Shown: positions 12,433 to 50,238 of the stretch, in pieces
Position numbering within the stretch: the stretch's first letter is position 1
How the letters are laid out: each line of letters begins with the position of its first letter
Origin: Rhodobacterales bacterium LSUCC0031
GTDB taxonomy: Bacteria > Pseudomonadota > Alphaproteobacteria > Rhodobacterales > Rhodobacteraceae
Direction: 5' to 3'
Assembly: GCA_015689735.1 (NCBI GenBank)
Contig: WVSP01000001.1
Coordinates: 918,001-982,000, forward strand
Length of the DNA stretch: 64,000 bases
Notes under the pieces: model-generated
The model's input: the letters and a program-made list of their open reading frames with translations, nothing else
Told to the model about the DNA's origin: nothing
Databases searched by the model: none
Made by a program: the position numbers and the translations under genes

Positions 12433-12647
12433 CCGCCCAGGCCAGACCATTGTGCAGCGCATGCCGTCATTTCTATGTCACCCATGACCGCGCCTTGCCT
12501 TGGGGGTGTCGGTCTTTCGGATTTCGCGCCGCACAATTGCCTAATTTGGTCGTGCGCGCCTCAACTGGCACGGATTGTGCTCGGTACGAGATAAAGCCCG
12601 TTGTCACGGCCCCCACGACACGACGCAACGTCAGGAATTCCGCATGA
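12429..12647 (+). CDS. Cys-rich 72-residue miniprotein
   Basis: The ATG at 12429 overlaps the previous stop (ATGA). The protein has C-S-A-C (9-12), a His at 14, H-F-Y-V-T-H-D near 14-20, W-G-C (25-27) and a fourth Cys near 49 before an acidic/aromatic stretch. Cys-x2-Cys plus further Cys suggests a small zinc-binding fold. Similar small proteins in other proteobacteria are often auto-labelled uracil-DNA glycosylase, but at this size it cannot be that enzyme and I do not assign the name. Its stop overlaps the next start by four bases, so expression is coupled to flhB and the following gene. Confidence 0.65.
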   Translation: MTAQARPLCSACRHFYVTHDRALPWGCRSFGFRAAQLPNLVVRASTGTDCARYEIKPVVTAPTTRRNVRNSA

Positions 12648-13426
12648 GCACGCAAACCGCCAGCCCGACCATCGAAGACAGCATCAAGACTGCGCTTGAC
12701 GCCGCTGACGCTGCGATCACCGTGAGTAGCGAGTTCGATCAAATCCGGACCGATTACCTCAAGACCCGGGTCGAGGTAAAAGCGATCAACAAGCAAGTGA
12801 TGACGGTCTTTATCTCGTCCTTGGTGGCCAGCGTCTTGACGGTTGCGGTTGCGGGTCTGATCTATTTTCGGACCATCAGCGAGATGCAGACGACTAACGC
12901 GACCTCGCTCGAAGCCTTGGTGATCTTTGCGGAGAATGTTGATCGGCTTGCCGCCGCCACGAGCGAGGCGAATGCGCAGGCCGAAAGGATCAATGAGCTT
13001 GTTTCAGGGTTCGACGCGCTGCAAGAGCACATGACCGCACTGCTGGCGCAGCTCGATGCACAAGGTGAAACGACCTTGTCCGAATTGGCCAATGTCAACA
13101 CCGAGATTACGGGCTTGCTCAGCCAATCGACCTCGGCGGTGGTGCGGGAAGTTAGCGCTGCGATGGCGGATACGCAGATGGCACTCATGGCTGCGATGGA
13201 AACACTGCGCACCCAGCCGATCGAAGAGGGGATCGAGCAGGCAGAAAGTGGTCCATCGCCATTTGATGAGATCAAGGCAACTCTTGAAACCATGATGATG
13301 TTGCAACGCGAAATCTCGGCCAAGATCACAGCCGCGAATGCGCCCCCCCCGGCACCGGCGCGTACCGCGCCTCCGGCCACACCCCGTGCGGCACCGCGCG
13401 ACAACGACATGATCAAGTTCCCATGA
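12644..13426 (+). CDS. Membrane-anchored coiled-coil protein of unknown function
   Basis: The 260-residue protein starts at an ATG overlapping the preceding stop; a longer in-frame extension is not supported. It has a 43-residue cytoplasmic-like N-terminus, one strong membrane helix at about 48-70 (F-I-S-S-L-V-A-S-V-L-T-V-A-V-A-G), and then about 140 residues of Ala/Glu/Gln/Leu-rich helix with heptad-like spacing (75-215). A Pro/Ala-rich tail follows (about 232-250). Architecture resembles a bitopic scaffold or stator-associated protein, but no family is recognised. It is 12 bases from the next gene and lies in the flhB transcript. Confidence 0.75.
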   Translation: MSTQTASPTIEDSIKTALDAADAAITVSSEFDQIRTDYLKTRVEVKAINKQVMTVFISSLVASVLTVAVAGLIYFRTISEMQTTNATSLEALVIFAENVDRLAAATSEANAQAERINELVSGFDALQEHMTALLAQLDAQGETTLSELANVNTEITGLLSQSTSAVVREVSAAMADTQMALMAAMETLRTQPIEEGIEQAESGPSPFDEIKATLETMMMLQREISAKITAANAPPPAPARTAPPATPRAAPRDNDMIKFP

Positions 13427-13438
13427 TGGGACAATGCG

Positions 13439-14293
13439 ATGAATGAGAACCCGACACAGGGCGATACCGCCGAAGCTGAGGCGCATTTGCGCTCTTATCT
13501 CAAGCTAGAAACCCGCGGCCTTGGGCTGGCGGCGCGTAGCAAAAAGCTTAAGCCGGGCGATGTGCTGGTGGCCATCGATGGGGAGGCCTTCACGGGCGAT
13601 GCCGAGATGTTGGCAAAGCGGATGGGGCGCCAAGCCACGGGCAATGAGGACAACCCCGAAGTCGATGCAGCCGAAGATGGGGTGAGTGCGCATCTGCTGA
13701 CCTTTTGGCGTGACGGCAACTTTTTCCATGTGATTTTCGAGACCCGGCTCAAGGCAAGTTTCGAGGCGACAGGGGCGGAAGAAACGCTTGCGATCACGCA
13801 AGGTTGGCAAGCGCTCGTCATGGCACCGCTTGAGTCATACCAAAACTTCGAAGTCTTCCGGGATGTGCGCAAGAACGCAGCCCTTCATTCGACCGACAAC
13901 GAAGAGATCGCCACGCTTGCCCCTGCGTTGTGGATGCTGAACCATCGGCTCTATTACCCGCTGATGGCGGTCTGCATCGTCTATGGCATTACCTTCGTCG
14001 CCCACTGGTTCTTGTTCGTCATCAGCTATGTTCTTGTCTCGGTCTATACAAAGCGCACGCAAATTGACCTGCTGCGCTCATACAAGCTGTTCGAAGACAA
14101 GTTCTTTTGGATGGTCCTTGCCGAACCCGGCGAGGCCGAGGCGCGCGAGACCTGCAAGCGCTTTATCCCCGATCTGAAATTCCAGTTCGACACGAACCCC
14201 AAGCCGAAGAAAAAATCGCGCGACACAAATCGCCTACGCGTGCGCCCGCAGAATGTCGCGGCTGCATCGGGGAAAAACCCCGCGATCGGTTAA
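13439..14293 (+). CDS. PDZ-like membrane protein of unknown function
   Basis: The 284-residue protein has an N-terminal segment (about 20-60) with R-G-L-G-L-A-A-R and L-K-P-G-D-V-L-V-A-I-D-G, the carboxylate-loop and groove pattern of PDZ domains. The middle (75-150) is mixed. Hydrophobic stretches at about 170-205 (Y-Y-P-L-M-A-V-C-I-V-Y-G then F-L-F-V-I-S-Y-V-L-V) suggest a helical hairpin or two close membrane helices. A basic C-terminus follows. No signal peptide is seen, so the PDZ-like part may be cytoplasmic, which is unusual. Its TAA stop forms part of the -35 element of the next promoter. Function unknown; context suggests flagellum. Confidence 0.75.
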   Translation: MNENPTQGDTAEAEAHLRSYLKLETRGLGLAARSKKLKPGDVLVAIDGEAFTGDAEMLAKRMGRQATGNEDNPEVDAAEDGVSAHLLTFWRDGNFFHVIFETRLKASFEATGAEETLAITQGWQALVMAPLESYQNFEVFRDVRKNAALHSTDNEEIATLAPALWMLNHRLYYPLMAVCIVYGITFVAHWFLFVISYVLVSVYTKRTQIDLLRSYKLFEDKFFWMVLAEPGEAEARETCKRFIPDLKFQFDTNPKPKKKSRDTNRLRVRPQNVAAASGKNPAIG

Positions 14294-14317
14294 ACCTCGC
14301 CGCGACCTTGTCGTTAT
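14291..14317 (+). promoter_or_regulatory. Sigma-28-type promoter upstream of the Crp-fold pair
   Basis: TAAA (14291-14294), 15 bases, GTCGTTAT (14310-14317). This is identical in both boxes and spacing to the site in front of fliD. The -35 overlaps the stop codon of the preceding gene. Transcription would begin near 14324, leaving a short leader with GGAG (14331-14334) before the ATG at 14341. Confidence 0.7.
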
Positions 14318-14340
14318 ATGACATGAGAGCGGAGAATGGG

Positions 14341-14700
14341 ATGCGTGCAGACGTCTTTGTCGGATTGAATGTCGATCATTACCCGCGTCAGGATTTCGGC
14401 GTGGGCGACCTTGTCTTGGATGATGGTGCCAAGACCGACCGCCTTTTGATCGTGCTCAACGGTCGGCTTGCTGAGGTCGGCAAAGGGCGCGCGCTTGGTC
14501 CCGGCGATGTCGTCAAGGCAATCGAGTTCTTTGGGTCTAGCCAGTATTCCGGCCAGCTCCGCGGCCGCGCACCGGGTCAGATCGCCGTTGTGCCGCGCGC
14601 GGCTGTGCGTGATGGCCTCGCCGCGCAAGGTGCAATGACCTGGAACCTTGCATGCGCCATCGCAATCGAAGCGCTCGCATCAATGAAGGAGCATGCCTGA
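14341..14700 (+). CDS. Single-domain Crp-fold-like protein (first of a pair)
   Basis: This 119-residue protein resembles a lone cyclic-nucleotide-binding beta roll: G-V-G-D-L-V-L, a turn, R-L-L-I-V-L-N-G-R-L, G-R-A-L-G-P-G-D-V, then strands and a C-terminal helix with A-C-A-I-A-I-E-A-L. There is no DNA-binding helix-turn-helix after it, and the Gly-Glu/Arg phosphate cassette is not recognisable. ATG at 14341 has GGAG six bases upstream. It shares a base with the next gene's start, and the pair appears to be driven by a sigma-28 promoter, so a late flagellar or motor-control role is inferred. Fold assignment is moderate. Confidence 0.65.
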   Translation: MRADVFVGLNVDHYPRQDFGVGDLVLDDGAKTDRLLIVLNGRLAEVGKGRALGPGDVVKAIEFFGSSQYSGQLRGRAPGQIAVVPRAAVRDGLAAQGAMTWNLACAIAIEALASMKEHA

Positions 14701-15041
14701 TGTCGCTTCCCGCGCGGCTTGGCGGTCTTGTGCAGCAGGCACGGGTGCAACTTTTACATGGTGAAGTGGTGTTCATGCCGGGTGAGGCTGTTGACGCCGT
14801 TTATTTGGTGGAACGCGGCGGCATCGTGGTGGTGGCCCCGTCAGGCGACAGTATCAAGGCCGTGCTAGGTCCGCTGTGCATCGTGGGATTGCGTGACTTG
14901 CTGTCGGTTGGCGCGTGGCAGGGGGTTGGGCTTGCGCAAGGCCCGACATTGCTTCGAGTGCTTGAGACACGCACGATCTTGGCCACGCTTGCATGCACCC
15001 CTGACGCGCATCGCAAGCTCTTGCACGAACTCGCCGCGTGA
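14700..15041 (+). CDS. Single-domain Crp-fold-like protein (second of a pair)
   Basis: The 113-residue product has H-G-E-V-V-F-M-P-G-E-A-V-D-A-V-Y-L-V-E-R-G-G-I (about 20-42), the opening strands of Crp/Fnr-type sensor domains, followed by V-L-G-P-L-C-I-V-G-L-R-D-L-L. It lacks a helix-turn-helix and the canonical F-G-E-x-A/L...R cassette, so cyclic nucleotide binding is doubtful. Its start overlaps the stop of the first partner by one base (TGATG), a hallmark of stoichiometric co-expression; a heteromeric complex is inferred. It ends ten bases from the convergent rpoN end. Confidence 0.65.
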   Translation: MSLPARLGGLVQQARVQLLHGEVVFMPGEAVDAVYLVERGGIVVVAPSGDSIKAVLGPLCIVGLRDLLSVGAWQGVGLAQGPTLLRVLETRTILATLACTPDAHRKLLHELAA

Positions 15042-15051
15042 CGCGACGCCT

Positions 15052-16533
15052 TTAGATTTTTCCGGCAAGGACGGCAGTGCGCTTGCGCTGGAATGACGAG
15101 GCGATCCCCTCCATCTCGCGGTATTTGGCGACGGTGCGTCGCGCAAGGCGGATGCCCTCCTTGGCCATGATCTGCACGATCGCGTCATCGCTGAGCGGCT
15201 GCGCCGGGACCTCGCCCTCGACCAGTTTGCGCAGTTTGAAGCGGATCGCCGAGGCCGCTTCCCCATCGCTATTGGCATCATTTGTGATGCTGGCGCTGAA
15301 AAACATCTTCAGCCGGAACGTGCCGCGGGGTGTGGCCATCATCAAGCTGTTGGTCACCCGGCTGATTGTGCTTTCATGCATGCCAATCGCCTCGGCGATA
15401 TCGCGCAGCACCATCGGCTTGAGCGCGATCGGGCCTTGTTCGAAAAAGCCGATTTGCTGGCGTAGGATTTCGGCACCAACCTTGAGCGCGGTGTCATTGC
15501 GTTGCGCAATCGCCCGGTCCAACCATCGCGCTTCTGACACGCGCTCGGCCACGAAACTGCGCAGGTTTTCATCTTTCTTGCCGGCAATCATCTGCTTGGC
15601 CTCACCGTGCAAGACCTTGATCGCGGGCAAGGTCGAGCGGTTCAACTCGACCGTCCAGCCATCGGGGCGGCGGCGCACGATCAGGTCGGGCGGCAAAATC
15701 GGCTCGGCCTTGCCCGAAAAGCGCGCGCCGGGCTTGGGGTCGAGGCTGCGCAACAGGCGCAGCATTTCTGCCATCCGTTCGGGTGTCGCCTTGCACAGCC
15801 GTGCAAGACCTTTGACATTGCCCGCGCCCAACAGGGCGAGGTTGTCGAGAAGGATTGCGAAATCAGGCGTGAGCAAGTCGCGGTCGCGCGCTTGGAGGCG
15901 CAAGCAATCGCTGAGGTCGCGCGCAAACAATCCCGCTGGTTCGATCTGTTGTAGTGACGTCAAGACCGCTTCGACCCGCTCTGTCGTGACCATGCTGAAG
16001 GCTGCGATATCGGCGACATCTTGGCCAAGCCAGCCTGACGGTTCCAACGCATCAATGAGTGCCAGGGCAATCATGCGGTCGGTGGGGTCGGAAAATAGTC
16101 GCTCGGCCTCGGCGCAGGCATGGCCGTAGAGCGACAGCTCCGCGTCGGCGGCAATCAGCGACAGCGCATCGAATTCACCATCACTTGCCGCTGTGCGGTG
16201 TTCGCTCCGCCCAAGCTCGATCTGGCCGGTTTCGAATTGGTTATCCAAGGCGGCCTCGGGGATGGGGCCGTCGCTTTGGATCGTGCCGTCACCAAAATCG
16301 AGGGCGCCCCCCCCGCTTGGATCTTCAGGCGCGGCGGGCGTTAATGGGACATCGTCGTCCGTGCCGCTGCCATGCGTGCTGACATCGAGAAACGGATTCT
16401 CCTCGGATTGTTGTTCCAAAAAGCCGCGCAACTCGATGTTCGACATCGTCAAAAGGCGGATCGCTTGCTGCAACTGGGTCGTGATGACAAGCGATTGCTT
16501 GCGTTGCAGCTGCTGTGCGGGAAACATCTGCAT
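15052..16533 (-). CDS. rpoN: RNA polymerase sigma-54 factor RpoN, flagellar-cluster copy
   Basis: RpoN directs RNA polymerase to -24/-12 promoters and needs an AAA+ activator. The 493-residue protein has the Gln/Leu-rich region I (L-Q-R-K-Q-S-L-V-I-T-T-Q-L-Q-Q-A-I), an acidic Gly-rich region II (about 50-115), the core-binding and helix-turn-helix regions (about 125-400), and the RpoN box A-R-R-T-V-A-K-Y-R-E close to the C-terminus, followed by S-S-x-Q-R-K-R. It sits inside the flagellar cluster beside flagellin, like rpoN2 of R. sphaeroides, so it is probably dedicated to flagellar promoters. The fleQ-like activator is in the same window. Confidence 0.96.
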   Translation of the reverse strand: MQMFPAQQLQRKQSLVITTQLQQAIRLLTMSNIELRGFLEQQSEENPFLDVSTHGSGTDDDVPLTPAAPEDPSGGGALDFGDGTIQSDGPIPEAALDNQFETGQIELGRSEHRTAASDGEFDALSLIAADAELSLYGHACAEAERLFSDPTDRMIALALIDALEPSGWLGQDVADIAAFSMVTTERVEAVLTSLQQIEPAGLFARDLSDCLRLQARDRDLLTPDFAILLDNLALLGAGNVKGLARLCKATPERMAEMLRLLRSLDPKPGARFSGKAEPILPPDLIVRRRPDGWTVELNRSTLPAIKVLHGEAKQMIAGKKDENLRSFVAERVSEARWLDRAIAQRNDTALKVGAEILRQQIGFFEQGPIALKPMVLRDIAEAIGMHESTISRVTNSLMMATPRGTFRLKMFFSASITNDANSDGEAASAIRFKLRKLVEGEVPAQPLSDDAIVQIMAKEGIRLARRTVAKYREMEGIASSFQRKRTAVLAGKI

Positions 16534-16903
16534 CTTGGTGGCCCTTGTGTCCTTAAGCTTTGATTTTCCGCGATTTTTCTTGAATTGGAAGGCTGTTTAT
16601 TTGACGCTTGAGGGTCGGGAATTTGACGGCTTAACCCCTTGGCAAAGCGCGTGAATTCGCGCCTTTCCCGCGGCCTGTTCGTATGTCGTCGGAATTACGT
16701 CACGCCCATGCTGGCCCCATGCGTTGTCACGCAAACTTACCGGCCAGACTAAACAATCTTGAAATGCGTCGTTTAGGTCCCTGAGCGCCTCGACACAGGC
16801 CTCAGGTTGAAAATGCCAGTGCTGAAAAGTTCAGGACGACCTGATTTGACCCTGATTGGCGAAGACGGCGCAGGCGGGCTCAGGATAAACAAGGAGAGAC
16901 GAC
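16534..16903. other. Divergent rpoN-flagellin intergenic region
   Basis: This 370-base gap holds no convincing gene. It contains the rpoN leader, the candidate sigma-28 promoter for flagellin (16750-16775), a perfect 5-bp inverted repeat TCAGG-ACGA-CCTGA (16831-16844) in the flagellin leader, and GGAGAG just before the flagellin ATG. No sigma-54 site was found for either direction, so rpoN is probably transcribed by a housekeeping sigma. Confidence 0.6.
16750..16775 (+). promoter_or_regulatory. Sigma-28-type promoter of flagellin
   Basis: TAAA (16750-16753), 14 bases, GTCGTTTA (16768-16775). The -10 box shares GTCGTT with the sites before fliD, flgM, 14341 and 47366. It would give a leader of about 120 bases, long enough for post-transcriptional control. 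Spacing is one base shorter than in fliD. Confidence 0.6.
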
Positions 16904-18487
16904 ATGGCTCTGAATATCAACACCAACATCGGCGCCCTCGGCGCTGCTGCGGCTGCTTCGTCAGTCAACAAGTCGATGGAAACTGCAATGGAGCGGCTTT
17001 CGACGGGTTTGCGGATTAATACGGCTGCCGATGACGCGGCGGGTGTGGCAATTGCGTCGCGTATGGATGCGCAGATTCGTGGCTTGAATCAAGCAATTCG
17101 AAACGCTGCCGATGGTCAATCGCTGATTGACACAACTGAAGGTGCGCACCAGGAGGTTACAAACATTCTTCAGCGGATGCGTGAACTTGCTGTTCAATCG
17201 GCAAACGATACGAACGTTGCAGGCGACCGGTCCAACATGCAAGCTGAGGTTACTCAGTTGTTGGCAGAGATTGACCGAATTTCCGCACAAACCACTTGGA
17301 ATGGTGTCGCGGTTCTTGATGGTTCGTTCACTTCTAAATCACTGCAAATTGGTGCTGAACGCGGCCAGACTGTTGCGGTAAATGTGGACAGTGTCTCAAC
17401 CTCTTCAATCGGTTCTCATCAAGTGGATTCCAACCTTAACCTAGCTTCGGGTACAGCCAATGGGATGAGCGCTACCGGTGATGTCGTAATTACAGGGAAG
17501 CTGGGGTCAGCGACAATCGATGTTTCGGCAACTGGAAAAACCGCAAAAGCATTTGCTGCTGCCGTTAATTCGAATACATCGTCAACAGGAGTCACGGCTA
17601 ATGCTGTAACTAAAGCCAAGCTGTCTAACTTCAGTGCTCCCGACACGGTTTCGTTCACAATAAACGGAACTTCTATCGGGGCTGTAGCAATCGCGGATGC
17701 GACTGACCTTCGCGATCTGAAAGATGCAATCAACGCGATTGCGGGTTCAACTGGTGTGACGGCATCGTTGAGCGGTGGTTCTAATGCTGCTTTGGAACTC
17801 ACAGATGCCGATGGTGACGATATCATCTTTGGATCGTATGCTACAACGAGCACCGCGTTGATGCGCCTTAGCGTATTAGATAAAAATGGTAATGTTGCAC
17901 AAAGCACTGGCGGCACGGATCTAATTGCAGAGTTCGCAGATCTTGCCGCACACGCTGATGGCGCAACCTATCCGAACGCTGTGGCCTTCACTGTCACAGG
18001 TCAGGTTTCTATGAATTCGGACGAAGCATTTACCTTGGCAACAACCCATGATGCTGTCGACTTTGATACTGATACTCCAGCTGATGACGCTCTTGAAACA
18101 GTTCTCGCAGATGGTGAGTTCTTTGGTGCTGCTGGAACCGCTGGTACGGTAATCAGTAACTCTAGCCTCACAAATGTTGGTACAGTCAACATTTCTACTG
18201 CAACCGGCGCTGGCAATGCGTTGGACGTAATTGATGCTGCCATTGAAAAGATTAACTCCGCCCGTGCTGACCTTGGTGCTATCTCCAACCGTCTTGATAA
18301 CACGATCTCGAACTTGACGAATATCTCGACGAATATTTCGTCTTCGCAAGCTCGTATCCAAGACGCCGACTTCGCGGCGGAAAGCACCAACCTCGCGAAG
18401 GCGCAAATCCTCCAGCAGGCGGCGACCGCGATGCTCGCCCAGGCGAACGCCTCCAAGCAGGGTGTGCTTCAGCTGCTCCAGGGCTGA
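16904..18487 (+). CDS. fliC: Flagellin
   Basis: This is the filament subunit. The 527-residue protein has the conserved N-terminal D0/D1 helices (about 1-160; I-N-T-N-x-x-A, R-L-S-T-G-L-R-I-N, A-D-D-A-A-G, R-I-S-A-Q-T-T-W-N-G) and C-terminal D1/D0 helices (about 440-527; S-R-I-Q-D-A-D-F-A, ending V-L-Q-L-L-Q-G). The middle (about 175-430) is a variable Thr/Ser/Ala/Asp-rich surface domain. Codons in much of the gene, especially the middle, are more AT-rich than the neighbours, while the last 200 bases are GC-rich. It starts at ATG with GGAG upstream and is followed by a strong terminator. It is the only flagellin gene in the window. Confidence 0.97.
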   Translation: MALNINTNIGALGAAAAASSVNKSMETAMERLSTGLRINTAADDAAGVAIASRMDAQIRGLNQAIRNAADGQSLIDTTEGAHQEVTNILQRMRELAVQSANDTNVAGDRSNMQAEVTQLLAEIDRISAQTTWNGVAVLDGSFTSKSLQIGAERGQTVAVNVDSVSTSSIGSHQVDSNLNLASGTANGMSATGDVVITGKLGSATIDVSATGKTAKAFAAAVNSNTSSTGVTANAVTKAKLSNFSAPDTVSFTINGTSIGAVAIADATDLRDLKDAINAIAGSTGVTASLSGGSNAALELTDADGDDIIFGSYATTSTALMRLSVLDKNGNVAQSTGGTDLIAEFADLAAHADGATYPNAVAFTVTGQVSMNSDEAFTLATTHDAVDFDTDTPADDALETVLADGEFFGAAGTAGTVISNSSLTNVGTVNISTATGAGNALDVIDAAIEKINSARADLGAISNRLDNTISNLTNISTNISSSQARIQDADFAAESTNLAKAQILQQAATAMLAQANASKQGVLQLLQG

Positions 18488-21950: not shown

Positions 21951-24900
21951 TTACGAGATTGCGTTAAGCAAGGTGTCGAGGAGTTCCCCAGCCGTCCGCA
22001 ACACGCGCGCCAGCGCTTGATAGGCTTGCTGTTGTTCAAGCAGGCGTGCGGCTTCGTCATCAAGGTTAACCCCTGAGTACTCAGCCTCCAATTCCACCGC
22101 CGCATCGCGCCGTGCTTCGGCTGCACTTTGGGCGATGGTGGCGCTGCGTGTCTCGGCCCCGGTATTGGTCACAAGGGTTGCGAATTCGGCACCGAAACCG
22201 CCCAAACCTGTGCGGGCATTGCGTTCGCCAAGCGCAAAGAGTGCAAGCGCGTTGCGGGCATCGCCCGTGCCATTTTGGTTTTCCCGCACATAGAATCGAT
22301 CACCCGTTTCCAATGGGCCGTCGAGCGCAAAGCGCATGCCATAGGCGTTAAAGGTGCCATCCTCGGCCAAGGTGCGGGTGGCCAATGAATGACCCGTGGC
22401 GCGGTCAATGATCTCCACCCTGCGTGCTGGGGCGTCGATGACATGCACCGCGAATGCCGCGGCTGGCCGGGTGCTGACCTGATCTTGGCCAAAGCTCGCC
22501 GCGATGCGCCTTGCGCCGCTGCCTGTAGCGATCACGATCAGTTCTTCATCGGGCAAGCCCCGCAAGCTTAGGCGCTCTGCGACAAGGCTCGTGGCTTGTG
22601 CTGTCAGGGCAGGCGGAGTGCTGCCAGTGGCCGTGATCCGTAACCCCATTGCGCCGAGGGTGACATCGGCATTTGCGCTGATCAGTCCGAGTGCCACCGC
22701 ATCGACCGATGGACGCAGGCGGAAATCTGAAATCCCGCTTTCATGTGTCATGACGATTTGCGCGCTGATCCCAGTGCCATCTGCCCTGATATCAAGCCGC
22801 AGGCCGGTGATGGTGGGGTGGTTGATCTGGGTGGGAATGGTGCCATCCCACGCGAACTCCAGCGCCGTGTCGGTTTGATTGATCGCGGCGGTCAAGCTGA
22901 AAATGTCCGGGCTGCTTGGGATGGCGACAGGCCGACCGCCCAGCGTGGCTGTTGCGCCTGCAACACCCAACCCGAATGTTGCGGCATCCGCGGCCGGTGT
23001 GTCGGGCGACAGACGCAAGATTTGACCGCTCAGTGTCCCACCTGTCGCAGCAACTCGCAGCGTGTTGTTGTCATCGAAAAACGCGGTGATCCGGCCTGCT
23101 TCGGGACCGCTGACCACGATATCGCCAGCGGCCATCGTCAGCCCGTAGCTTTTCTCGCCCAGTAGGATTTGCACCGTTGTGCCATCGGCGGGTCGATTGC
23201 CCCCAAGGGGCAGACCCGACAACGCCGGGACCATGCCTTGGCTGCGCAGTGCTGCGGCCATTGCCTCTGCCACGCGTTCCGAGCGGATATCATTTAGCGT
23301 AGCGCTGGTAATTTCGGCGCTCAGGGCGGGCGTTCCATTCAGCCCGGCCAATGTCAACGAAAGCCGGGTTGCGGCGGCGGTCGCAGCAAGGCCTGCCGGG
23401 TCCGCCTCGGACGTATCAAGGCCCTCGGTCAAGTGAAAAGCGATGTCTTGCCAGCGCCCTGCCGGGTCAAGGTTGCGGCTCATCAACCCATCGGCAAACG
23501 GATCTGCCGCGCTCTGCGTGTTCTCGCCCTGCCAAGACAAGGCAAAAGGCGAACTACCGCGCAGGGTGACATCGCCCCCAAGTCGCAAGGTGGTAACATC
23601 GGTGTTACCCGCAAGTGTGGCGCTGGTTCCAGCCAGTGCAGCGGTGGCCGTGACGGCGGTTGCGCGAAATGTGCCGCCGCTTGAGGTGATGGCCGACAAC
23701 ACGATGTCATCGCCCCTGTCCGAGATCAGCACAAGGCGGTCGTCACCGACACCAAGGCTCGCCATGACACCCGTCTCTTGGCTACGCGCATTGATCGCGC
23801 TCAGCAGGTTATCCAACGAGCCGCCGGTGATATTCGCAGATATCTCGACAGGGGTCTCGTTCTGAGCTTCGAGCGTGAACTGCACCGTGCCATCATGGAA
23901 ATCCGATAGGGCAAGCCGCGTTGCGGCATCGGCACGTATCCCGGTGTCGGCAGTGGTGGCGTTGATGCGTTCGGCAATCAAGGCGGCCGAGTACTTGGCA
24001 GGAATGGCGATAGCTTCGGTCTCGTCGCCGATCGCAAGCGATAGGGTTCCCGCCGGATTGCGCGGTACAAGCGCCGCCGCGCCCACTTGCAGGTTGGGTG
24101 CGATACCGACACCAGAAAAACTCAGCACCGCGGCGCCCGTGGTCGTGCGCCGGACAATCTCCAGCCCCCGATACCCGATACCGCCATTCCCATTGAGAAA
24201 GTCAGCACGGTATTCGGCCTCGGGCAGGAAGCCGTTGGCTTCCGTCAGATAGCCAACAACCTCTGTTTGATCGAGCGGTGTGCCAGCGATTTGGCGTCCG
24301 TCGCGGGTGAAGATCTGCAAATTGCTGACCTCGGATAGCCCGTTACTGACATTGCCGTTGATGCTTGGCCCTTGCCCACTGATGGATCCGCTGAGGATGG
24401 CGCCCGTGCTGCTGGCTGCGGCAAGTGTCAGATTGCCCGCCGATCCGGCCGCAAAAAGGCCAAGATCGGCCATCCTTGTCCCGTTTTGTGTGGTCAAGGT
24501 CCCTGCATTGAGCAACCGTGCGAGATCTTGCGCATCTGCCCCCGGTTGATCATTGGCAAAGGTTTGAAACGGCCTCAGGTCAAAGTCAAAAAGCGCCCCG
24601 TTGGGTTGTGTCGCGGTCTTGAGCATCAAGGAAAGCGTCGCAACGTTATTGGTTTGGGCGTCGGTGAGTGCGAAGCGGACAGTGTCTTGGCGCCCCATCG
24701 AGGCGAAATCGACCGCGCTGACATTAGGGGGAATGACACCCAGAACGCCGTTCTGGCGCAACGCGGTCGCCGACAGCGTCGAGAGATCATCGCGAAGCAG
24801 CTGTGTCAGATCGCTCAACCCCGTCATGGCCGGCGGGGCGATAGCCGCGGTGTCAATCGTGGCACGCCCGGTATTGGTGATATCGGCTTCACTCGTCAAA

Positions 24901-26201
24901 AGCCCTGCCGCAGCGAAAGCTTGGGGACGGTCGATCAAGAAACGCATCTGCGCCGCTGCGCCGATCTCGGCGCGCAAAGTGAACTCATCGCCATCCGCCG
25001 GGGTGCCGGTCACATTGATCCGCACCGCACCAATAGCAATCATGCCAGGTGGGTGTTTGGTCGCGCGCCCATCACCATCGAAACTGATCCATGCCGCATC
25101 TTTGGCCGAATAGGAAAAGCGGGTCTCACCAGCCATTTGTGCCAGAACATCGGGCGCGGTTGCGCTTGCGGTAAAGCGGCCGAGATTTGTGGCCGACTGG
25201 CTGATGGACACGCCATCTGCGCTGAACAAGGCTTTGCCGACCTTGCCCTCAAGGTCGATACCCTTGCCATGCACGCTATTGAATTCGTTCGCGAGCCGGG
25301 CGGCCAGCGCATCAAGTGCGCCCATTGCTTGGGTGACCGATCGATAGGCCTCGGACAGGCCTGCTAAACGGCCCGATGATACCTGCTGTGTTTCGGTCAA
25401 TCCGGGAGCTTGCCCCGCGAGAAAGACAAGACGGTCTTCGTCGCGACGGAGTTGCAAGCTTCCCGCAACTGTCGGCGTACCAAGAACCGGCCCATTGCCG
25501 CTGCGCCCCAGTGTGACCGTTGCCGCCCCGCTTTGCGCCGCTGCGACCGAAACGCCGACAAGCGCACTGATCTCGGAGATCGTTTGGTCACGTGCATCGA
25601 GAATGGCGTTCGAGGCGCCATTTGCACTGCCTGAGGCGATTAACTGATTTTGCGTATTGCGCAGCGTCACCAGCAAGCCGTTGAGATCGCGGGTGACATG
25701 GGTCGCTTGTTGCCAGATTGTTTCGCGCAGGGCGTCCAGATCCTGGGACAGCTGCACAAATCCTTTTGCCAGGGCATTGCCTTGGGTCAAAGCGACGGTG
25801 CGCGCGGCAAGATCCGCTGGGGCCTGTGCCACGCCGTTCAGCCCATCGAAGAACCCGTTTAGAAAATAGCCGATATCGTAGTCGCCGGGAGCCAGCGCAC
25901 TTTCAAGGGAATCGAGGCTTGCCTTGAAGGCTTCCGCTTGCGAGAAATCCGAGCCTGCATCGCGCGCGCGCCCCGAGATGAAGCTATCAAACGCGCGGCT
26001 GATCCCAGCGACACGGACGCCGAGCCCCGTTTGATCGGCGATGGTGGTGACATCGTTCTGGCTGGCAGAGATCTCCGACAGATCGACACCACGCCTGCGA
26101 TAGCCCTCGGTGTTGATATTGGCAATGTTTTGGCCTGTCACGGCCAAAGCCTCGCGATAGGCTTGGATGCCGCTGCTGGCGATATCGAAGAGGCCGGGCA
26201 T
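21951..26201 (-). CDS. flgK: Hook-filament junction protein FlgK (HAP1), very large
   Basis: FlgK forms the first junction zone between hook and filament. The conserved ends are intact: N-terminus with G-I-Q-A-Y-R-E-A-L-A-V-T-G-Q-N-I-A-N-I-N-T-E-G-Y given in two halves around residues 11-34, and C-terminus with Y-S-G-V-N-L-D-D-E-A-A-R-L-L-E-Q-Q-Q-A-Y-Q near 1374-1396. Between them lie about 1,000 residues of Ala/Gly/Thr-rich beta-type sequence, making 1416 residues against about 550 in enterobacteria. The insert includes repeated patterns resembling flagellin IN-type surface domains (A-D-A-A-T... with Leu/Thr strands). It is an intact reading frame with codon use like the neighbours, two bases from flgJ. 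Confidence 0.93.
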   Translation of the reverse strand: MPGLFDIASSGIQAYREALAVTGQNIANINTEGYRRRGVDLSEISASQNDVTTIADQTGLGVRVAGISRAFDSFISGRARDAGSDFSQAEAFKASLDSLESALAPGDYDIGYFLNGFFDGLNGVAQAPADLAARTVALTQGNALAKGFVQLSQDLDALRETIWQQATHVTRDLNGLLVTLRNTQNQLIASGSANGASNAILDARDQTISEISALVGVSVAAAQSGAATVTLGRSGNGPVLGTPTVAGSLQLRRDEDRLVFLAGQAPGLTETQQVSSGRLAGLSEAYRSVTQAMGALDALAARLANEFNSVHGKGIDLEGKVGKALFSADGVSISQSATNLGRFTASATAPDVLAQMAGETRFSYSAKDAAWISFDGDGRATKHPPGMIAIGAVRINVTGTPADGDEFTLRAEIGAAAQMRFLIDRPQAFAAAGLLTSEADITNTGRATIDTAAIAPPAMTGLSDLTQLLRDDLSTLSATALRQNGVLGVIPPNVSAVDFASMGRQDTVRFALTDAQTNNVATLSLMLKTATQPNGALFDFDLRPFQTFANDQPGADAQDLARLLNAGTLTTQNGTRMADLGLFAAGSAGNLTLAAASSTGAILSGSISGQGPSINGNVSNGLSEVSNLQIFTRDGRQIAGTPLDQTEVVGYLTEANGFLPEAEYRADFLNGNGGIGYRGLEIVRRTTTGAAVLSFSGVGIAPNLQVGAAALVPRNPAGTLSLAIGDETEAIAIPAKYSAALIAERINATTADTGIRADAATRLALSDFHDGTVQFTLEAQNETPVEISANITGGSLDNLLSAINARSQETGVMASLGVGDDRLVLISDRGDDIVLSAITSSGGTFRATAVTATAALAGTSATLAGNTDVTTLRLGGDVTLRGSSPFALSWQGENTQSAADPFADGLMSRNLDPAGRWQDIAFHLTEGLDTSEADPAGLAATAAATRLSLTLAGLNGTPALSAEITSATLNDIRSERVAEAMAAALRSQGMVPALSGLPLGGNRPADGTTVQILLGEKSYGLTMAAGDIVVSGPEAGRITAFFDDNNTLRVAATGGTLSGQILRLSPDTPAADAATFGLGVAGATATLGGRPVAIPSSPDIFSLTAAINQTDTALEFAWDGTIPTQINHPTITGLRLDIRADGTGISAQIVMTHESGISDFRLRPSVDAVALGLISANADVTLGAMGLRITATGSTPPALTAQATSLVAERLSLRGLPDEELIVIATGSGARRIAASFGQDQVSTRPAAAFAVHVIDAPARRVEIIDRATGHSLATRTLAEDGTFNAYGMRFALDGPLETGDRFYVRENQNGTGDARNALALFALGERNARTGLGGFGAEFATLVTNTGAETRSATIAQSAAEARRDAAVELEAEYSGVNLDDEAARLLEQQQAYQALARVLRTAGELLDTLLNAIS

Positions 26202-30050: not shown

Positions 30051-33000
30051 TTACATACGGATATTGATGATGGTCTGGGTCAGGCTTGTCGTCGTTTCGA
30101 TCGCCTTGGCCGAGGCCTGATAGTTCCGCTGCGCGGTGATCAGGTTCACCAACTCTTCTGTGATATCGACATTCGAGCGTTCAAGTGAACCCGACTGGAT
30201 CGTGCCGAACCCTTCCGAACCTGCCTCGCCCACCTGCGGTCGGCCCGATACGGCGGTTTCGACATAGGTCGCGTTGCCGATCTGCTTCAAACCGTTTTGG
30301 TTGTTGAAGGTGGCGATGACGATCTTGCCCAAGGGGTTGTTCTGGCCGTTGGTGTAGTTGGCCCGGATTGTCCCCGAACTGTCGATCTCGATCCCGTCGA
30401 GGCGACCGGAGGTGAAACCGTCTTGCTCCACCGACAAGACCGAGAAGGGCTGTGCGAACTGGGTCGAGGCCGAGAAATCGATCGCAAGCGAGATCGAGAA
30501 GCCATCGGCCTGCTGTTCGAAGCGCACCTTGTTCTTGGGGCTGATGAGCTTACCGGTCTTGTCGAAGGTCAGTTCGCCCTCGTCGATGTAGAGCGGGAAA
30601 TACCCGGTCACGAGGTTCTCGGGCGGCGAGGTCACGACATTACCATCGGCATCGACAAAGAGCGCAAGCCCGTCTTCGTTGGTGGCCTGCACGAGGTTGA
30701 AGATCTTGGGTACCGAACCCACGCCCAGCGGCACATCATCAAGCCCCAGCCGCGCCGTGCCCTTGACCTTGATCGTCGAGGTGTCGCCGGTGGTGCCGGT
30801 CGTGAAGGTGAAGCTGTTGGACGCCGCCGAATAACGCACTGTCACGCCGCCGACGCTGACGCCGGTATCGGGATCGGCGATCTGGTTCACCCGTTCTTCC
30901 AGGGCGGCGGCAAGGGTTGTGCCGACATAGTTGCCCGGCGGGATCTCGATCACACCCGCGATCCCGTTAACCGAGACGTTGAAGATGTTCTCGTTGTTGT
31001 TGGCGGTAAGCCGGAACACTTCCGTCAGGTCGCTTTGCGCGGCACGTCCGACGGCGATCGCGGGTTCCGAGGCAAGGCCGCGCCCTGCTTCGAATACATA
31101 ATCGGTGCGCGTTGCGCCAAACCCGAACAAGGCATTTTCGCCGCTGCCGATGATGCGTGCGTTCAGGTTGATCGCCTCGCTCGGGTCAGTGTTGCCACCC
31201 GAAAGGATGGTGCGGCGGCCGATTTGGATATTCGACGCCTTTTGGTTTTGCTCAACTCCGATGGCACCGTTGGTATTGATCCGCTCGCCGGTCGTGCCGC
31301 TCAGGACACTAAAGGATTTAGTATCGCTGTTATACTTTACCTCGATACCAAAGCGTTTGTCGTTGAGTTGGATTTCTTCGCCATCCGCAACAAAGCTTTC
31401 GGCCGAGAACACTTCGCCACCGCGGATCAGCACTTGCCGTGTGTTGCCCGCGTCGGGGATGCCAAGGCCATTTGTATCACTGGCCCCCGCAGCGCCTGAT
31501 ACGGTGAAGGAGTTAAAGTTACTCCCGGTCCCGGTGCCGAGTACGGTCCGATCTACCGTGAACTGCAAGCGCTGGTTGACATCATCATAGATGATCTTGA
31601 TCGCCGGGTTCTTTTCGTCGACCCAGCCGGCCCGGTTCGCTTCTGCAAGCTTGGTTGTCTGGGCCACCATAGTGCCGCCCGTCGCGGCGCTGGCCGTCGA
31701 AATGGCGGTGTTGCTCAAACTGACGGGGGTGCCGTTGGGATTGACCTGAAGCGTCGAGACGTCACCGTTGCCAATGCCGCCTGTGATCGAAAAGTTGCGA
31801 CCATCGGCGCGTGAGATCACGCCGGCTTCCGACATGGTGAAGCCCTTTTTGTCGGCAACGGCGTCGAAAGCAGTTTTCACGGCGGCCAAAGCAGCTTCGG
31901 CGGTCAGCGGCGCGGCCATGTCAGCCGAAGTGAAAGTGAGCGTGGCTTGGCCGACCGCGAGGGTGACCGTGTAGGCATCGCCTGCGGTCACAACACCTGC
32001 AACACTGAGCGACACCGAAGTTGGATCAGGGACCATGGTATTCAGCCCCAGCGCCGTGATCGCCGAGCTCACCCCACTGTTCTTCACACTGTCGATTACG
32101 AATGCATTGTTAAATGATGTGTCTGTCGTCTCGCGTGTTGCGGCGGAACCGATCTCGCGGAAGATGATCTTCTTGCTGTTGAAGGTGGTCAATACACCCT
32201 CTGTGCCGCTTTCGGCACCTTCAAAGAAGGCCTCCACGTCAGAGGATGGGTTAAAAAGCAAGGTAATCGCGCTGTTGTCGGTGAAGGAGGTATCCGAAAG
32301 GGCAAGGCCGGACGTATCGACCTTCAACAGTACATAATTGACATTGCCTTCGGTGACCGTTGTGCCATCAGCATCAAGCACCCGCAACGAGCGGCCGTTG
32401 AGATTGCTATCAAGCGTGCTGCCTTGAAGCTGGATCGACGCCGAGTTTGCGACATAGTCACTTGCCTTGACATAGATCGACAGCGTGTTCTGTGTTGCGT
32501 CATACGACAGCTTGTTGCTGTCCGTAGGCGCAGCGAGCGCGGCCCTCTTGTCGAAAACCGTTAGGCTCGGGCGGTCGTTGAAGTAGGAATAGGCCAGATA
32601 CCGCGACGTAGCAGCGTCACCGATTTCCTGGCTGCCAGTATAATGATCAACTTCGATCACCGCGGATTGCTGGTGGATATCGTTGATCGCCTGACCTGAC
32701 GCGCGGGTGAAGATACGCCCATCGACCCCCAAGGTCGTGGCCCCGGTGCCGAGGTTGGTGCCTGTGCTATCGTAGATATAGTCGTTGAGTGTGGCGTTGA
32801 TGCGTTCTTGTGTGTGCACAAGGAACTCATCCTTGGTGAAATCAGGCGATGCACCGTTGATATCGATGCCCGACAGCTGAGAGACGGATGTCTCTTGCAA
32901 CAGGTCGATCGATATGCGGTTTGCGCCAAGGCCAACCGGTGTGCCGTCGGCACCAACCTTGAAGAGGTCGATGGTCAATTCGTCATCGACATTTTGCACG

Positions 33001-34175
33001 ATCTGGAATTTTTTGTCGTCGCCATAGGCTGCGTTGATCGCGCGTTCGACCTCTTCGGCAAGTTGGGTGGCATTGTACTTGCCGGGGCGCAGATCGATCG
33101 ATACGGGCGCGTCGCCATCATCGACGTTCACGAGCAAGAAATCACGGCCCCAGAAGATGTCGCTATCGGTTTTTCCCGAGTCTCGCGTGGCTTGGTAGAG
33201 TAGGGGGTCTGTCACAATCTCGACCAGCTTGTCGCCTTCTTCACCAAAGTCGAAGCTGCTTTGCTCTCCCCGGATCGAAGCCGGCTGCGAGGGAATCTGC
33301 GTTTTCAGATCGTCGAGCTTGTAGAGCGGCGAGCCCTTGCCTTCGAGGAAGTAGTTGTCGTCAGGGACGGTCGTGGTCTGGTTGCCGAAGCGGTCCACAA
33401 AAATTTGCTTGCCGGTCTGATCGACCGCGCTCACGAGGTCAGGGTTGATCACGGTGCCATTGATGACCAGCCGGGTGTCGTACTTGTTGGTCGGATCCTC
33501 GGCCGAGGCGTTTTGTGTCTTGATGAAGTAGATCGTCGCGATTGTGGGGTTGCCCAGATCGTCGAAGATCGTGATCGAAGTCGAGTTCGTGTAGGTTGCC
33601 GGATCGTCGGGGTTGAAGGTGTAGCCATCGGCGAATTCCGGCAGGTTCGGGATTACGGCTGCATCCGCCGGAACGTTCACGCCAAGCTGGATGTTCGAGG
33701 TCGCGTTGGGTTCGCCCGAGGTCACTGGCAGTTGCAGCGGTACCGCGCTGTCGAGATCTTTCGCCGTGACCGAGCCGTCGGCATTTACCGGGTAGGTCAT
33801 CAGGTATTGGCCAGCGCTGTCCACCACGTAGCGGTCGTTATCCACATTGAAGGAACCGTTGCGGGTGAACACCGTCTGCGACGAGGTCAGCGAAGGTTTC
33901 AACGAGAAGAAACCCTGGCCCGAGATCGCGAGGTCAAGCGCGTTCAAGGACGAGGCGATGTTGCCTTGTGTGAACTGCTGCTTGATCCCCTTAAGGATGG
34001 CGCCCGAGCCGATCGATGAGGAGGCGTTTTGCAAGGGTGAAGTGGCAAAGATGTCGCCGAATTCGGCGCGCGAGCGTTTGAAACCCGTGGTGCCGACGTT
34101 GGCGATGTTGTTCGAAGTGGCCGAAATATCGGCCTGTGCGCCGTTCAACCCGGTGAGTGCGGTATAGAATGACAT
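30051..34175 (-). CDS. flgE: Flagellar hook protein FlgE, very large
   Basis: FlgE polymerises into the hook. The N-terminus (M-S-F-Y-T-A-L-T-G-L-N-G-A, S-N-N-I-A-N-V-G-T-T-G-F-K-R-S near 20-34, D-L-A-I-S-G-Q-G-F-F near 82-91) and C-terminus (S-N-V-D-I-T-E-E-L-V-N-L-I, ending I-N-I-R-M) are canonical. The middle carries about 900 extra residues, giving 1374 against about 400 in Salmonella. The insert is Ala/Thr/Asp/Val-rich, beta-type, without stop codons or obvious exact repeats. A hook subunit this size implies a large surface domain. Frame and codon use look normal, so it is a real long gene and not an assembly fusion. Confidence 0.95.
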   Translation of the reverse strand: MSFYTALTGLNGAQADISATSNNIANVGTTGFKRSRAEFGDIFATSPLQNASSSIGSGAILKGIKQQFTQGNIASSLNALDLAISGQGFFSLKPSLTSSQTVFTRNGSFNVDNDRYVVDSAGQYLMTYPVNADGSVTAKDLDSAVPLQLPVTSGEPNATSNIQLGVNVPADAAVIPNLPEFADGYTFNPDDPATYTNSTSITIFDDLGNPTIATIYFIKTQNASAEDPTNKYDTRLVINGTVINPDLVSAVDQTGKQIFVDRFGNQTTTVPDDNYFLEGKGSPLYKLDDLKTQIPSQPASIRGEQSSFDFGEEGDKLVEIVTDPLLYQATRDSGKTDSDIFWGRDFLLVNVDDGDAPVSIDLRPGKYNATQLAEEVERAINAAYGDDKKFQIVQNVDDELTIDLFKVGADGTPVGLGANRISIDLLQETSVSQLSGIDINGASPDFTKDEFLVHTQERINATLNDYIYDSTGTNLGTGATTLGVDGRIFTRASGQAINDIHQQSAVIEVDHYTGSQEIGDAATSRYLAYSYFNDRPSLTVFDKRAALAAPTDSNKLSYDATQNTLSIYVKASDYVANSASIQLQGSTLDSNLNGRSLRVLDADGTTVTEGNVNYVLLKVDTSGLALSDTSFTDNSAITLLFNPSSDVEAFFEGAESGTEGVLTTFNSKKIIFREIGSAATRETTDTSFNNAFVIDSVKNSGVSSAITALGLNTMVPDPTSVSLSVAGVVTAGDAYTVTLAVGQATLTFTSADMAAPLTAEAALAAVKTAFDAVADKKGFTMSEAGVISRADGRNFSITGGIGNGDVSTLQVNPNGTPVSLSNTAISTASAATGGTMVAQTTKLAEANRAGWVDEKNPAIKIIYDDVNQRLQFTVDRTVLGTGTGSNFNSFTVSGAAGASDTNGLGIPDAGNTRQVLIRGGEVFSAESFVADGEEIQLNDKRFGIEVKYNSDTKSFSVLSGTTGERINTNGAIGVEQNQKASNIQIGRRTILSGGNTDPSEAINLNARIIGSGENALFGFGATRTDYVFEAGRGLASEPAIAVGRAAQSDLTEVFRLTANNNENIFNVSVNGIAGVIEIPPGNYVGTTLAAALEERVNQIADPDTGVSVGGVTVRYSAASNSFTFTTGTTGDTSTIKVKGTARLGLDDVPLGVGSVPKIFNLVQATNEDGLALFVDADGNVVTSPPENLVTGYFPLYIDEGELTFDKTGKLISPKNKVRFEQQADGFSISLAIDFSASTQFAQPFSVLSVEQDGFTSGRLDGIEIDSSGTIRANYTNGQNNPLGKIVIATFNNQNGLKQIGNATYVETAVSGRPQVGEAGSEGFGTIQSGSLERSNVDITEELVNLITAQRNYQASAKAIETTTSLTQTIINIRM

Positions 34176-37796: not shown

Positions 37797-38522
37797 TTAA
37801 TCCTGAGTATCGCCCGTGAGTTCCACCAAGCGGTTACGCAAAGTGCTAATTGCGGCTTTCTTGATCTGCGACACACGGCCGGTTGTGACGTCGAGAATTT
37901 CGGCGATCTCGTAAATATTGCATTCTTCAACATAGTAGAGCTGGATCACCAGCGCTTCGCGTTGACTAAGACTTTCGAGTGCTTTGCGCAATGCAGCGCG
38001 CAATTCGGTCTTGTTGATCTCTTCTTCGGGGTTGCCCGCGCTGCTGAAAAACCAGACCGAAAACTCGTCATGCACCTCTTCGATTGTTTGCAGCGTGTTG
38101 GCTTGAAACGCTTGGCGCCATTGCTCGTATTCATTGACGCTCATGCCAAGCTCTTCGGCAATTTCGATCGAGCTAGGCAAACGTTGCAGGCGGCGTTCGA
38201 GGGCAAGCGTGGCGCGGTTGACCCTTTGGCGGTTCAGGATCGTGGTACGGCACAGGTTTGAGGCGCGCCGCAGATGGTCGGCAATCGCCCCCCTGATCTT
38301 GATCCCTGCATAGGCGGCAAAACTGGCCCCCTCCTTGCGCTCATATTTTTGGGCGGCATCGACCAGCCCCACATAACCCGCTTGGATCAGGTCTTCGACC
38401 TCGACCGCGCCACGTACCCGCCCATGAAAATAATGCGCGATCTTGCGCACTTGTTCCATCTGACTGGTGATCAAGTCATGCGGCGAGGGTCGCTGTTCAG
38501 GGTACTGGGCGCGCAACATCAT
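37797..38522 (-). CDS. fliA: Flagellar sigma-28 factor FliA
   Basis: FliA directs transcription of late flagellar genes and is held by FlgM until the hook is complete. The 241-residue protein has region 2 (E-D-L-I-Q-A-G-Y-V-G-L-V-D-A-A near 43-57, then F-A-A-Y-A-G-I-K-I-R-G-A near 68-79), region 3 and region 4 (E-A-L-V-I-Q-L-Y-Y-V-E-E and I-A-E-I-L-D-V-T-T-G-R-V-S-Q-I near 200-220). It overlaps the flhG stop by four bases. Sites of the type TAAM-N14/15-GTCGTT in this window are presumably its targets; this -10 differs from enterobacterial GCCGATAA. Confidence 0.96.
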   Translation of the reverse strand: MMLRAQYPEQRPSPHDLITSQMEQVRKIAHYFHGRVRGAVEVEDLIQAGYVGLVDAAQKYERKEGASFAAYAGIKIRGAIADHLRRASNLCRTTILNRQRVNRATLALERRLQRLPSSIEIAEELGMSVNEYEQWRQAFQANTLQTIEEVHDEFSVWFFSSAGNPEEEINKTELRAALRKALESLSQREALVIQLYYVEECNIYEIAEILDVTTGRVSQIKKAAISTLRNRLVELTGDTQD

Positions 38523-44854: not shown

Positions 44855-45570
44855 TGAGGGTTGTCTTGGCAATCATCGCCGTATTCCTTGTTGCAAACAG
44901 TGCCCATGCTGAGTTGCGCCCACCTCTGACAGGTGCAGACATCGCCGTGGTCGTGCGCGAGGCCATGATCGAGAACGGCCAAATCGGTGCGCCCATGCTG
45001 GCCGAACAACGCCGCTACTATCCTTGCGAAACCGCGCTTTCCGTCGCGCCGCGACGTGCCGGGCGTTGGGACGCAGTCGATGTCTCATGCGCGGGTGCGA
45101 TCCCTTGGTCCATCGTGGTCCGGACATCGGTCGAGGTTCCCGCCATATTCGGGTTTGGCGAAGGCGAGCGAACCGGCGAAATGACAAATGTCGTGGTGCC
45201 GCGCCATACACTGCGGCGTGATGAGGTGATTACTGCCGAGAAACTCGAATTGGTTGCGATCGACAGCGCCCGTGCATCAGGGACGTATTCCGAGATCGCA
45301 CCTTTGATAGGGCGTCGGATGGTCCAAACCCTCAGCGCCGGTGTGCCGGTGCGTGAGCGCCACATGGAACTGGCTTGGTCCGTGCGCGAAGGCGACCCGA
45401 TCGTGATCGAGGCAAACACTGGCGGCATGATTATTTCCATGGCAGGTATCGCCCTTGAAAACGGGCAAGTCGGTGATTTCATTGAGGTGCGCAACCAACG
45501 CTCGCAGAAAACCGTGCATGGGATCGTAGGCGAGGGAAAAAAAATTGTCGTCGCCGCTAACATGAATTGA
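44851..45570 (+). CDS. flgA: P-ring assembly chaperone FlgA
   Basis: FlgA is a periplasmic chaperone for P-ring assembly. The 239-residue precursor has a signal peptide (about 1-20, ending S-A-H-A) and a C-terminal SAF-type region (about 115-235) with V-V-V-P-R-H-T-L-R-R-D-E-V-I and G-I-A-L-E-N-G-Q-V-G-D-F-I-E-V-R-N, the FlgA signature. Two cysteines in the N-terminal half may pair. It overlaps flgT. Confidence 0.93.
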   Translation: MMRVVLAIIAVFLVANSAHAELRPPLTGADIAVVVREAMIENGQIGAPMLAEQRRYYPCETALSVAPRRAGRWDAVDVSCAGAIPWSIVVRTSVEVPAIFGFGEGERTGEMTNVVVPRHTLRRDEVITAEKLELVAIDSARASGTYSEIAPLIGRRMVQTLSAGVPVRERHMELAWSVREGDPIVIEANTGGMIISMAGIALENGQVGDFIEVRNQRSQKTVHGIVGEGKKIVVAANMN

Positions 45571-45584
45571 AACTGGGTCGTTAT
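45558..45584 (+). promoter_or_regulatory. Sigma-28-type promoter of flgM
   Basis: TAAC (45558-45561), 15 bases, GTCGTTAT (45577-45584). Same -10 and spacing as fliD, with one mismatch in -35. The -35 lies in the last codons of flgA. It puts flgM-flgN under FliA as well as under read-through from flgP. Confidence 0.6.
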
Positions 45585-45605: not shown

Positions 45606-45902
45606 ATGATCGACTTCATCAATAATTCGGCTCGGCCGAAAATCCCCGTCGGAGGGTCGCAGAGCGGCGCTTCGGCCCCCCAGGCGCCAAGCCAAGCGGC
45701 TGCGCCGGTCCCTGCGTCGCCCCAAGCCGAGGTGAGTGTCATCGGCGCGAAGGCTACTGTTTCGGAACTCGCGAAATCCCCCCCGATCGATCTCGAGGCG
45801 GTGGGCCGGATCAAAGAAGCGATTTCGCGCGGTGCCTATCCGGTGGACCTCGACAAGATCGCGGAAAAGCTGATGGAAAGCTTTATCGATACTCATGGAT
45901 GA
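45606..45902 (+). CDS. flgM: Anti-sigma-28 factor FlgM
   Basis: FlgM binds FliA and is exported when the hook is complete. The 98-residue protein has an unstructured Ala/Pro/Ser-rich N-terminus and a C-terminal FliA-binding helix region (about 60-97) with L-E-A-V-G-R-I-K-E-A-I-S-R-G-A-Y and I-A-E-K-L-M-E-S. ATG at 45606 has AGGAGG six bases upstream. It overlaps flgN by eight bases. Confidence 0.92.
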   Translation: MIDFINNSARPKIPVGGSQSGASAPQAPSQAAAPVPASPQAEVSVIGAKATVSELAKSPPIDLEAVGRIKEAISRGAYPVDLDKIAEKLMESFIDTHG

Positions 45903-50211: not shown

Positions 50212-50238
50212 TAAACAGTATCAGCGCAGCGTCGTTAT
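50212..50238 (+). promoter_or_regulatory. Sigma-28-type promoter of fliD
   Basis: TAAA (50212-50215), 15 bases, GTCGTTAT (50231-50238). It lies in the 71-base motB-fliD gap, 31 bases before the fliD ATG. Confidence 0.75.

Follow-up and report, generated by a model that had tools for sequence, protein, structure and literature searches.

Two small adjacent genes in a Rhodobacterales flagellar cluster, here called A and B, appear to encode a late flagellar accessory not described so far. By sequence motif, the pair carries a late flagellar (FliA-type) promoter that is common to the flagellin and filament cap genes, and the sole credible Pfam match of either protein is PF00027, the cNMP-binding domain with the Crp beta-roll. 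We tentatively propose that A and B depend on FliA for expression and form a heteromer that adjusts flagellar output once the hook is complete, probably without a nucleotide. Among the alternatives, control of late gene expression ranks as the main rival, and binding of a residual or unusual ligand comes next. The initial annotation of this DNA had described a coupled pair of Crp-fold proteins behind a perfect late flagellar promoter; as a whole it holds for the profile domains, the coupling, the promoter motif and the degenerate cassette, but the word "perfect" is too strong for its agreement with the enteric promoter.

Host cluster and gene pair

The window (the whole 64,000-nucleotide stretch analysed; G000:C1:918001-982000) comes from a 2.98 Mb genome of seven contigs and contains a flagellar cluster. 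Profiles match FliF, FliG, FliH, FliI, FliL, FliM, FlhA and FlhB, as well as RpoN, flagellin, FlgI, FlgH, a rod protein, an FlgE-like hook protein, FlgD, FliA, FlgA, an FlgT-like protein, MotA, MotB, FliD, a sigma-54 activator, FlgK, FlgM and a MinD-like ATPase. The FlhF match lies under its cutoff, and FliN, FliO, FliP, FliQ, FliR and FlgL were assigned from gene order and by eye. From flhB to rpoN, the order is an 80-aa protein, a MotF-like protein, a PDZ-like protein, A and B (Table 1). We know of no described role for the PDZ-like protein of this cluster type. The Fla1-type features matched by profile in the window are rpoN, sigma-54 activator, FliA, FlgM, FlgT, SLT and FliL; the cluster make-up is as in Fla1 of R. 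sphaeroides, in which FliA, once FlgM has been exported, directs the transcription of fliC and fliD, according to the available part of the source (PMC7277832).

The small protein encoded near motAB at window positions 47470-48015 carries an MRCSVGQRW-like motif; it recurs by eye in two related loci (L068, L070), and NCBIfam gives it a sub-cutoff Lsa25 match only. Two further proteins, the FlgK-like one (1416 aa; window 21951-26201) and the FlgE-like hook protein (1374 aa; window 30051-34175), are far above the usual length, FlgK and FlgE usually being much shorter.

Table 1. Position of genes A and B, their neighbours and the FliA-type motifs in the window.
Feature	Position	Strand	Basis or remark
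MotF-like protein (coilTM)	12644..13426	+	position and apparent TM place only
PDZ-like protein (PDZTM), marker of cluster type	13439..14293	+	weak PDZ match (0.0062), under curated score
FliA (sigma-28)-type promoter motif TAAA-N15-GTCGTTAT before A	14291..14317	+	sequence motif only
GGAG, probable ribosome binding site of A	14331..14334	+	read from sequence
Gene A	14341..14700	+	119 aa, one degenerate cNMP-binding-type domain
Gene B	14700..15041	+	113 aa, one degenerate cNMP-binding-type domain
rpoN (sigma-54), convergent with the pair	15052..16533	-	profile match
FliA-type motif, 14-base spacer, before flagellin gene 16904-18487	16750..16774	+	
fliA (sigma-28), presumed sigma factor of the motif	37797..38522	-	profile match
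Near form TAAC-N15-GTCGTTAT before flgM 45606-45902	45558..45584	+	
FliA-type motif before fliD 50269-51885	50212..50237	+	

The reading frames of A and B share base 14700, the A of TGATG, which confirms the one-base overlap noted earlier. An alternative upstream ATG for A at 14323 is possible, but it is the ATG at 14341 that has the GGAG ahead of it at a distance of 6 nt. The two coding regions overlap in 14/16 pair loci (by 1 nt in seven, 4 nt in three and 14 nt in four) and are separated by a gap of 1-2 nt in the remaining two. Between L030 and L032, dN/dS was 0.14 for A and 0.16 for B, and between L108 and L109 it was 0.05 and 0.04, respectively; in comparisons involving the window's own genes, silent sites are near saturation. 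By these ratios, A and B look like proteins under selection. No membrane segments were seen by eye in either protein. The two are distant paralogues, as window B scores 0.0038 with the A profile, and a joint alignment with the seven B proteins puts the identity of window A to them at 9-19%.

Late flagellar promoter motif

The motif before A reads TAAA-N15-GTCGTT. Its TAA doubles as the stop codon of the upstream gene and is therefore constrained in the window, whereas in L044 the upstream frame stops ahead of the promoter site. Across the 2.98 Mb genome, the pattern TAAA-N14-16-GNCGTTW has four sites, all within the window: one each before A-B, flagellin and fliD, and a fourth within the sigma-54 activator gene, in antisense orientation. 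As a control, the pattern read backwards has 35 genomic sites. The initial annotation had spoken of a perfect sigma-28 site; the site does fit the motif of this genome's own flagellin and fliD genes, but GTCGTTAT agrees with the enteric sigma-28 -10 consensus, GCCGATAA, at 5/8 positions. A sigma-70 scan of positions 13500-16000 returned one match (14187-14216, 9/12) where 0.6 were expected, and this match was set aside. As for the fourth FliA-type site, at window position 52119 in the sigma-54 activator gene, no gene was seen directly after it.

Among relatives, we scored a loose form of the motif (TAA[AC]-N14/15-G[TCA]CGT[TC]) and a strict one (TAAA-N15-G[TC]CGTT). The loose form stands 44-85 nt before the first operon gene in 16/16 pair loci and the strict form is present in 13 of them (exceptions L043, L110 and L095), counts that are not independent since several of the loci are close relatives. 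Shuffled upstream sequences contained the loose form in 26 and the strict form in 5 of 8,000 cases. In control upstream regions of these and related loci, the loose form was found in 2/170, both belonging to flagellin genes matched by the FlgL query. The upstream regions of 11 flagellin genes gave the loose motif in five cases within 130 nt and in nine within 250 nt, and those of L071 and L072 lacked it within 250 nt. The loose form was defined with these loci already in view; more weight therefore goes to the strict and whole-genome counts and to the loci outside the cluster. All five off-cluster pairs have the motif, two of them in the loose form only.

A similar pattern, TAAAN{14,16}GYCGTTW, has two sites in G030, one of which lies before the pair, and this pair stands apart from the flagellar contig. 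The pattern is less telling in the other pair-bearing genomes because it is commoner there (20 sites in each of G045 and G176, 21 in G599, 16 in G359, 15 in G602, 10 in G600, 7 in G174 and 5 in G604). It catches the pair's own site in 7/9 genomes and misses those of G174 and G359. FliA itself was searched in 15 genomes, with the Marinibacterium MAG left out, and was matched in 14 of them at 1e-10 and in 13 below 1e-60; the match is weak in G604 and there is none in G597 (completeness 93% and 77%). The earlier proposal of a late flagellar promoter is borne out in the form of a FliA-type motif that recurs in relatives, off-cluster copies included.

Degenerate cyclic-nucleotide-binding domains

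Window A matches PF00027 at 2.8e-5 (24.4 bits, under the curated 27.5), its only further Pfam match being Beta_propel at 0.072, and window B matches PF00027 at 1.1e-6 (28.9 bits, over the curated 27.5). At a threshold of 0.01, the domain was found in 16/16 A and 14/15 B proteins, with a best value of 3.1e-11 among A relatives. Other matches in B relatives were tRNA_int_end_N2 in two (best 0.0011) and Cupin_3 in one (0.0077). The Pfam scans of A, B and their relatives returned neither a DNA-binding or HTH family nor a PilZ domain, in keeping with the suggestion that each protein is a lone Crp-type domain without a DNA-binding part.

Against solved cNMP domains, single-stretch values of the A profile were 1.2e-7 for Vfr and about 2e-6 for CRP; its best whole-chain value (PKG, 1.6e-11) is the sum of several weak domains. 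The B profile gave 6.6e-7 for a single stretch of CNG channel beta-3, and its best whole-chain value (PKA regulatory subunit, 9.2e-8) is likewise a sum of weak domains. AlphaFold models from five-row alignments (the window plus four related loci) were of very low confidence (mean pLDDT 43.9 for A and 38.4 for B; pTM 0.39 and 0.29) and unusable, so the fold claim rests on the sequence profiles.

In the profile alignments with PKG and PKA domains, the phosphate cassette of B keeps its Gly, its Glu is replaced, and a Trp occupies the place of the Arg. Specifically, Trp73 of window B aligns with the cassette Arg, and Trp is present in 14/15 B proteins (Leu in L046). The cassette of A shows neither Gly-Glu nor Arg; Tyr69 of window A aligns with the cassette Arg, and Tyr is present in 15/16 A proteins (Ala in L044). 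The A proteins of the second family (f19) all read YRS at that place (7/7), so that with a one-residue register shift their Arg could fall on the cassette position. As judged from these alignments, cassette loss is likely in B and in first-family A, and less sure in the seven f19 A. With this register doubt attached to f19, the absence of the usual phosphate cassette, as stated in the initial annotation, is upheld by the profile alignments.

Distribution of the pair

Counting pairs only where A and B are adjacent, we found 16 loci (the window, L029-L032, L043-L046, L105-L110 and L095) in 15 genomes under two family labels. The adjacent pair is present in 5/198 genomes of the family draw (G000, G030, G045, G174 and G176), in 3/13 genomes of the genus, one of which has two copies, and also in one Marinibacterium MAG. 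The DNA of L030, recorded as Roseicyclus (an alphaproteobacterial genus of Rhodobacterales), is part of G205, a genome that bears the same genus label as the window genome. In the second family, f19, B was matched at 1e-6 in 8/28 genomes; A adjoins it in seven, and a contig end cuts one. At 1e-3, B matched 26/198 genomes of the family draw, mostly in long reading frames that were taken as generic CNB proteins. Two candidate pairs were dropped, G116 (A only, weak and with an internal stop) and G202 (an 850-aa frame).

The class and phylum draws were searched with A profiles only. A was matched in 78/385 class-draw genomes, and among the three examined (G000, G359 and G551) the pair is present in G000 and G359; in G551, one A-like protein stands by itself, the other window proteins giving no match in 19.9 kb. 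In the phylum draw, A was matched at 1e-9 in 13/398 genomes, all of which were examined; the pair was found in G000 only, and scanning the other 12 for B revealed no separate B beside A.

The pair converges with rpoN in 11/16 loci (8 in the first family and 3 in f19). At L044, L108, L109, L110 and L095 (10 to 20 kb each), searches with 30 other window proteins gave no match, and with 5/16 pairs so placed, the flagellar linkage of the pair is not constant. The PDZ-like neighbour is present in all five pair-bearing genomes of the family draw. It was matched in 13 family genomes, 8 of which, some matched weakly, gave no pair; the eighth of these, G084, has a short and weak match. Where the pair is missing, the PDZ-like gene is followed by motB-like genes in L068-L070 (with motA-like genes in two, by eye; L069 ends before rpoN) and directly by rpoN in L071-L074. 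Clusters of this flagellar type do not always include the pair.

Three f19 loci have an extra 101-102-aa gene, X, that opens the operon before A (L105, 2297-2605; L106, 239-547; L107, 10311-10616), and there the FliA-type motif sits before X. Gene X has a sub-threshold SnoaL_2 match in Pfam and, among all loci compared, occurs only in these three f19 genomes. In genus g344 (L108-L110 and L095), the pair is divergent from a gene with a proteorhodopsin-like start (by eye).

Proposed role

In our model, A and B would make up a late (class IV) flagellar operon of two genes that FliA-bound RNA polymerase transcribes after hook completion and export of FlgM. As its motif is common to flagellin and cap, A-B would be made while the filament is being built, and the near-constant overlap suggests that the two proteins are made in balance, translational coupling probably matching their output. 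The products, distantly paralogous single cNMP-type domains that appear to have lost the cassette and bear a conserved aromatic as their mark, would act jointly as an obligate heteromer. Since neither has a recognised DNA-binding or enzyme part, the heteromer would most likely act through contacts with other proteins and so adjust motor output or the use of stators in filament-bearing cells; the logic would be like that of E. coli YcgR, but with a different fold and probably without a cyclic nucleotide. We infer the FliA dependence from the motif, and likewise infer the heteromer, its contact action, its target and its effect on the motor. The initial annotation had suggested more broadly that such a heteromer may sense or block something in the motor, the export gate or the chemotaxis system. 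It is possible, though doubtful, that this aromatic-for-Arg pseudo-cNMP heteromer is a nucleotide-free late flagellar switch that reports on or adjusts the finished motor or the filament supply.

Instead of acting on the motor, the heteromer could be a feedback regulator that binds FliA, FlgM, RpoN, sigma-54 activators or the flagellin messenger and thereby adjusts filament supply. Crp-type domains are present in many regulators, and the promoter motif shared with fliC and fliD, the near form at flgM and the convergence with rpoN at 11/16 loci in two families would all suit such a role. We nevertheless consider it somewhat unlikely, given that no DNA-binding domain is among the matches of A and B and that 5/16 loci are not beside rpoN, so that the rpoN linkage may reflect ancestry only.

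A late second-messenger receptor, in which A and/or B bind c-di-GMP, cAMP or another ligand in a non-canonical way, appears unlikely to us. Neither protein keeps the cassette Glu and Arg in the profile alignments, and the conserved residue at the Arg position is aromatic; on the other hand, the domain family is a ligand-binding one, f19 A has an Arg one residue off the cassette position (YRS, 7/7), and E. coli YcgR, a small, late, FliA-dependent PilZ effector of c-di-GMP, offers a precedent. Very unlikely is a late-expressed passenger lacking a flagellar function (e.g., a metabolic or light-response sensor of swimming cells), which would explain why the pair is missing from many related clusters and lies away from cluster genes in 5/16 cases, but not why the two genes stay together, change little in protein sequence and have the motif at 16/16 loci, including the five off-cluster ones (two loose only).

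A FliA regulon typically comprises a short set of genes for the filament, its cap, the anti-sigma factor, chemotaxis and the motor. A-B, for which we found no paper, shares its promoter motif with flagellin and cap, retains some form of this motif even in off-cluster copies, and would be a new kind of flagellar regulator if its action is on the motor or in the control of late genes. In that case, it would also exemplify a nucleotide-sensor fold turned into a nucleotide-free protein-contact module, and the nucleotide-free switch would be a new use of the Crp fold. Being small and, by motif, its own transcription unit, A-B is directly testable.

Comparison with known systems

By profile, A and B belong to the same family as the PF00027 proteins (CRP, PKA/PKG regulatory domains and CNG channels), but they are single domains with no effector part found and are encoded as an adjacent pair; compared with the PF00027 receptors, they have the cassette Glu and Arg replaced, with an aromatic at Arg. 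The N-terminal half of CRP/FNR regulators is the domain matched by A and B, whereas the C-terminal HTH of these regulators has no counterpart in either. Both proteins also match, by profile, the CNB homology domains of KCNH channels (3ukn, 4f8a and 4llo). Those domains have a self-filled pocket in which cyclic nucleotide is not used and the residue that fills it belongs to a later strand; in A and B, by contrast, the alignment places the aromatic at the very position of the cassette Arg, and no channel is present. E. coli YcgR is proposed as an analogue in logic only, since A and B belong to another domain family and lack a PilZ match. According to the available part of PMC7277832, MotF and FliL are accessory proteins of R. 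sphaeroides Fla1, MotF being a membrane protein that helps to activate the stator. The window is apparently of the same flagellar type, as far as that part of the source describes it, and has a MotF-like gene two genes upstream of A; unlike MotF, A and B have no membrane segment by eye, and they have their own promoter motif.

The initial annotation knew of no described flagellar component like A-B, and our literature search also found none, a weak result given its rare-word queries and with most subscription journals outside its scope. No description was found of a late flagellar, paired, aromatic-cassette form of the CNB domain. The main text of PMC12363192 contains no word beginning with CRP or Roseicyclus. 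The CNB domain itself is not new, since many short, stand-alone CNB frames occur among the genomes of the class draw. The two-CNB proteins of f194 (L158-L163 and L165-L167; 3 kb loci) were matched by both the A and the B profiles, and those that were read consist of one polypeptide with two CNB-like halves by eye.
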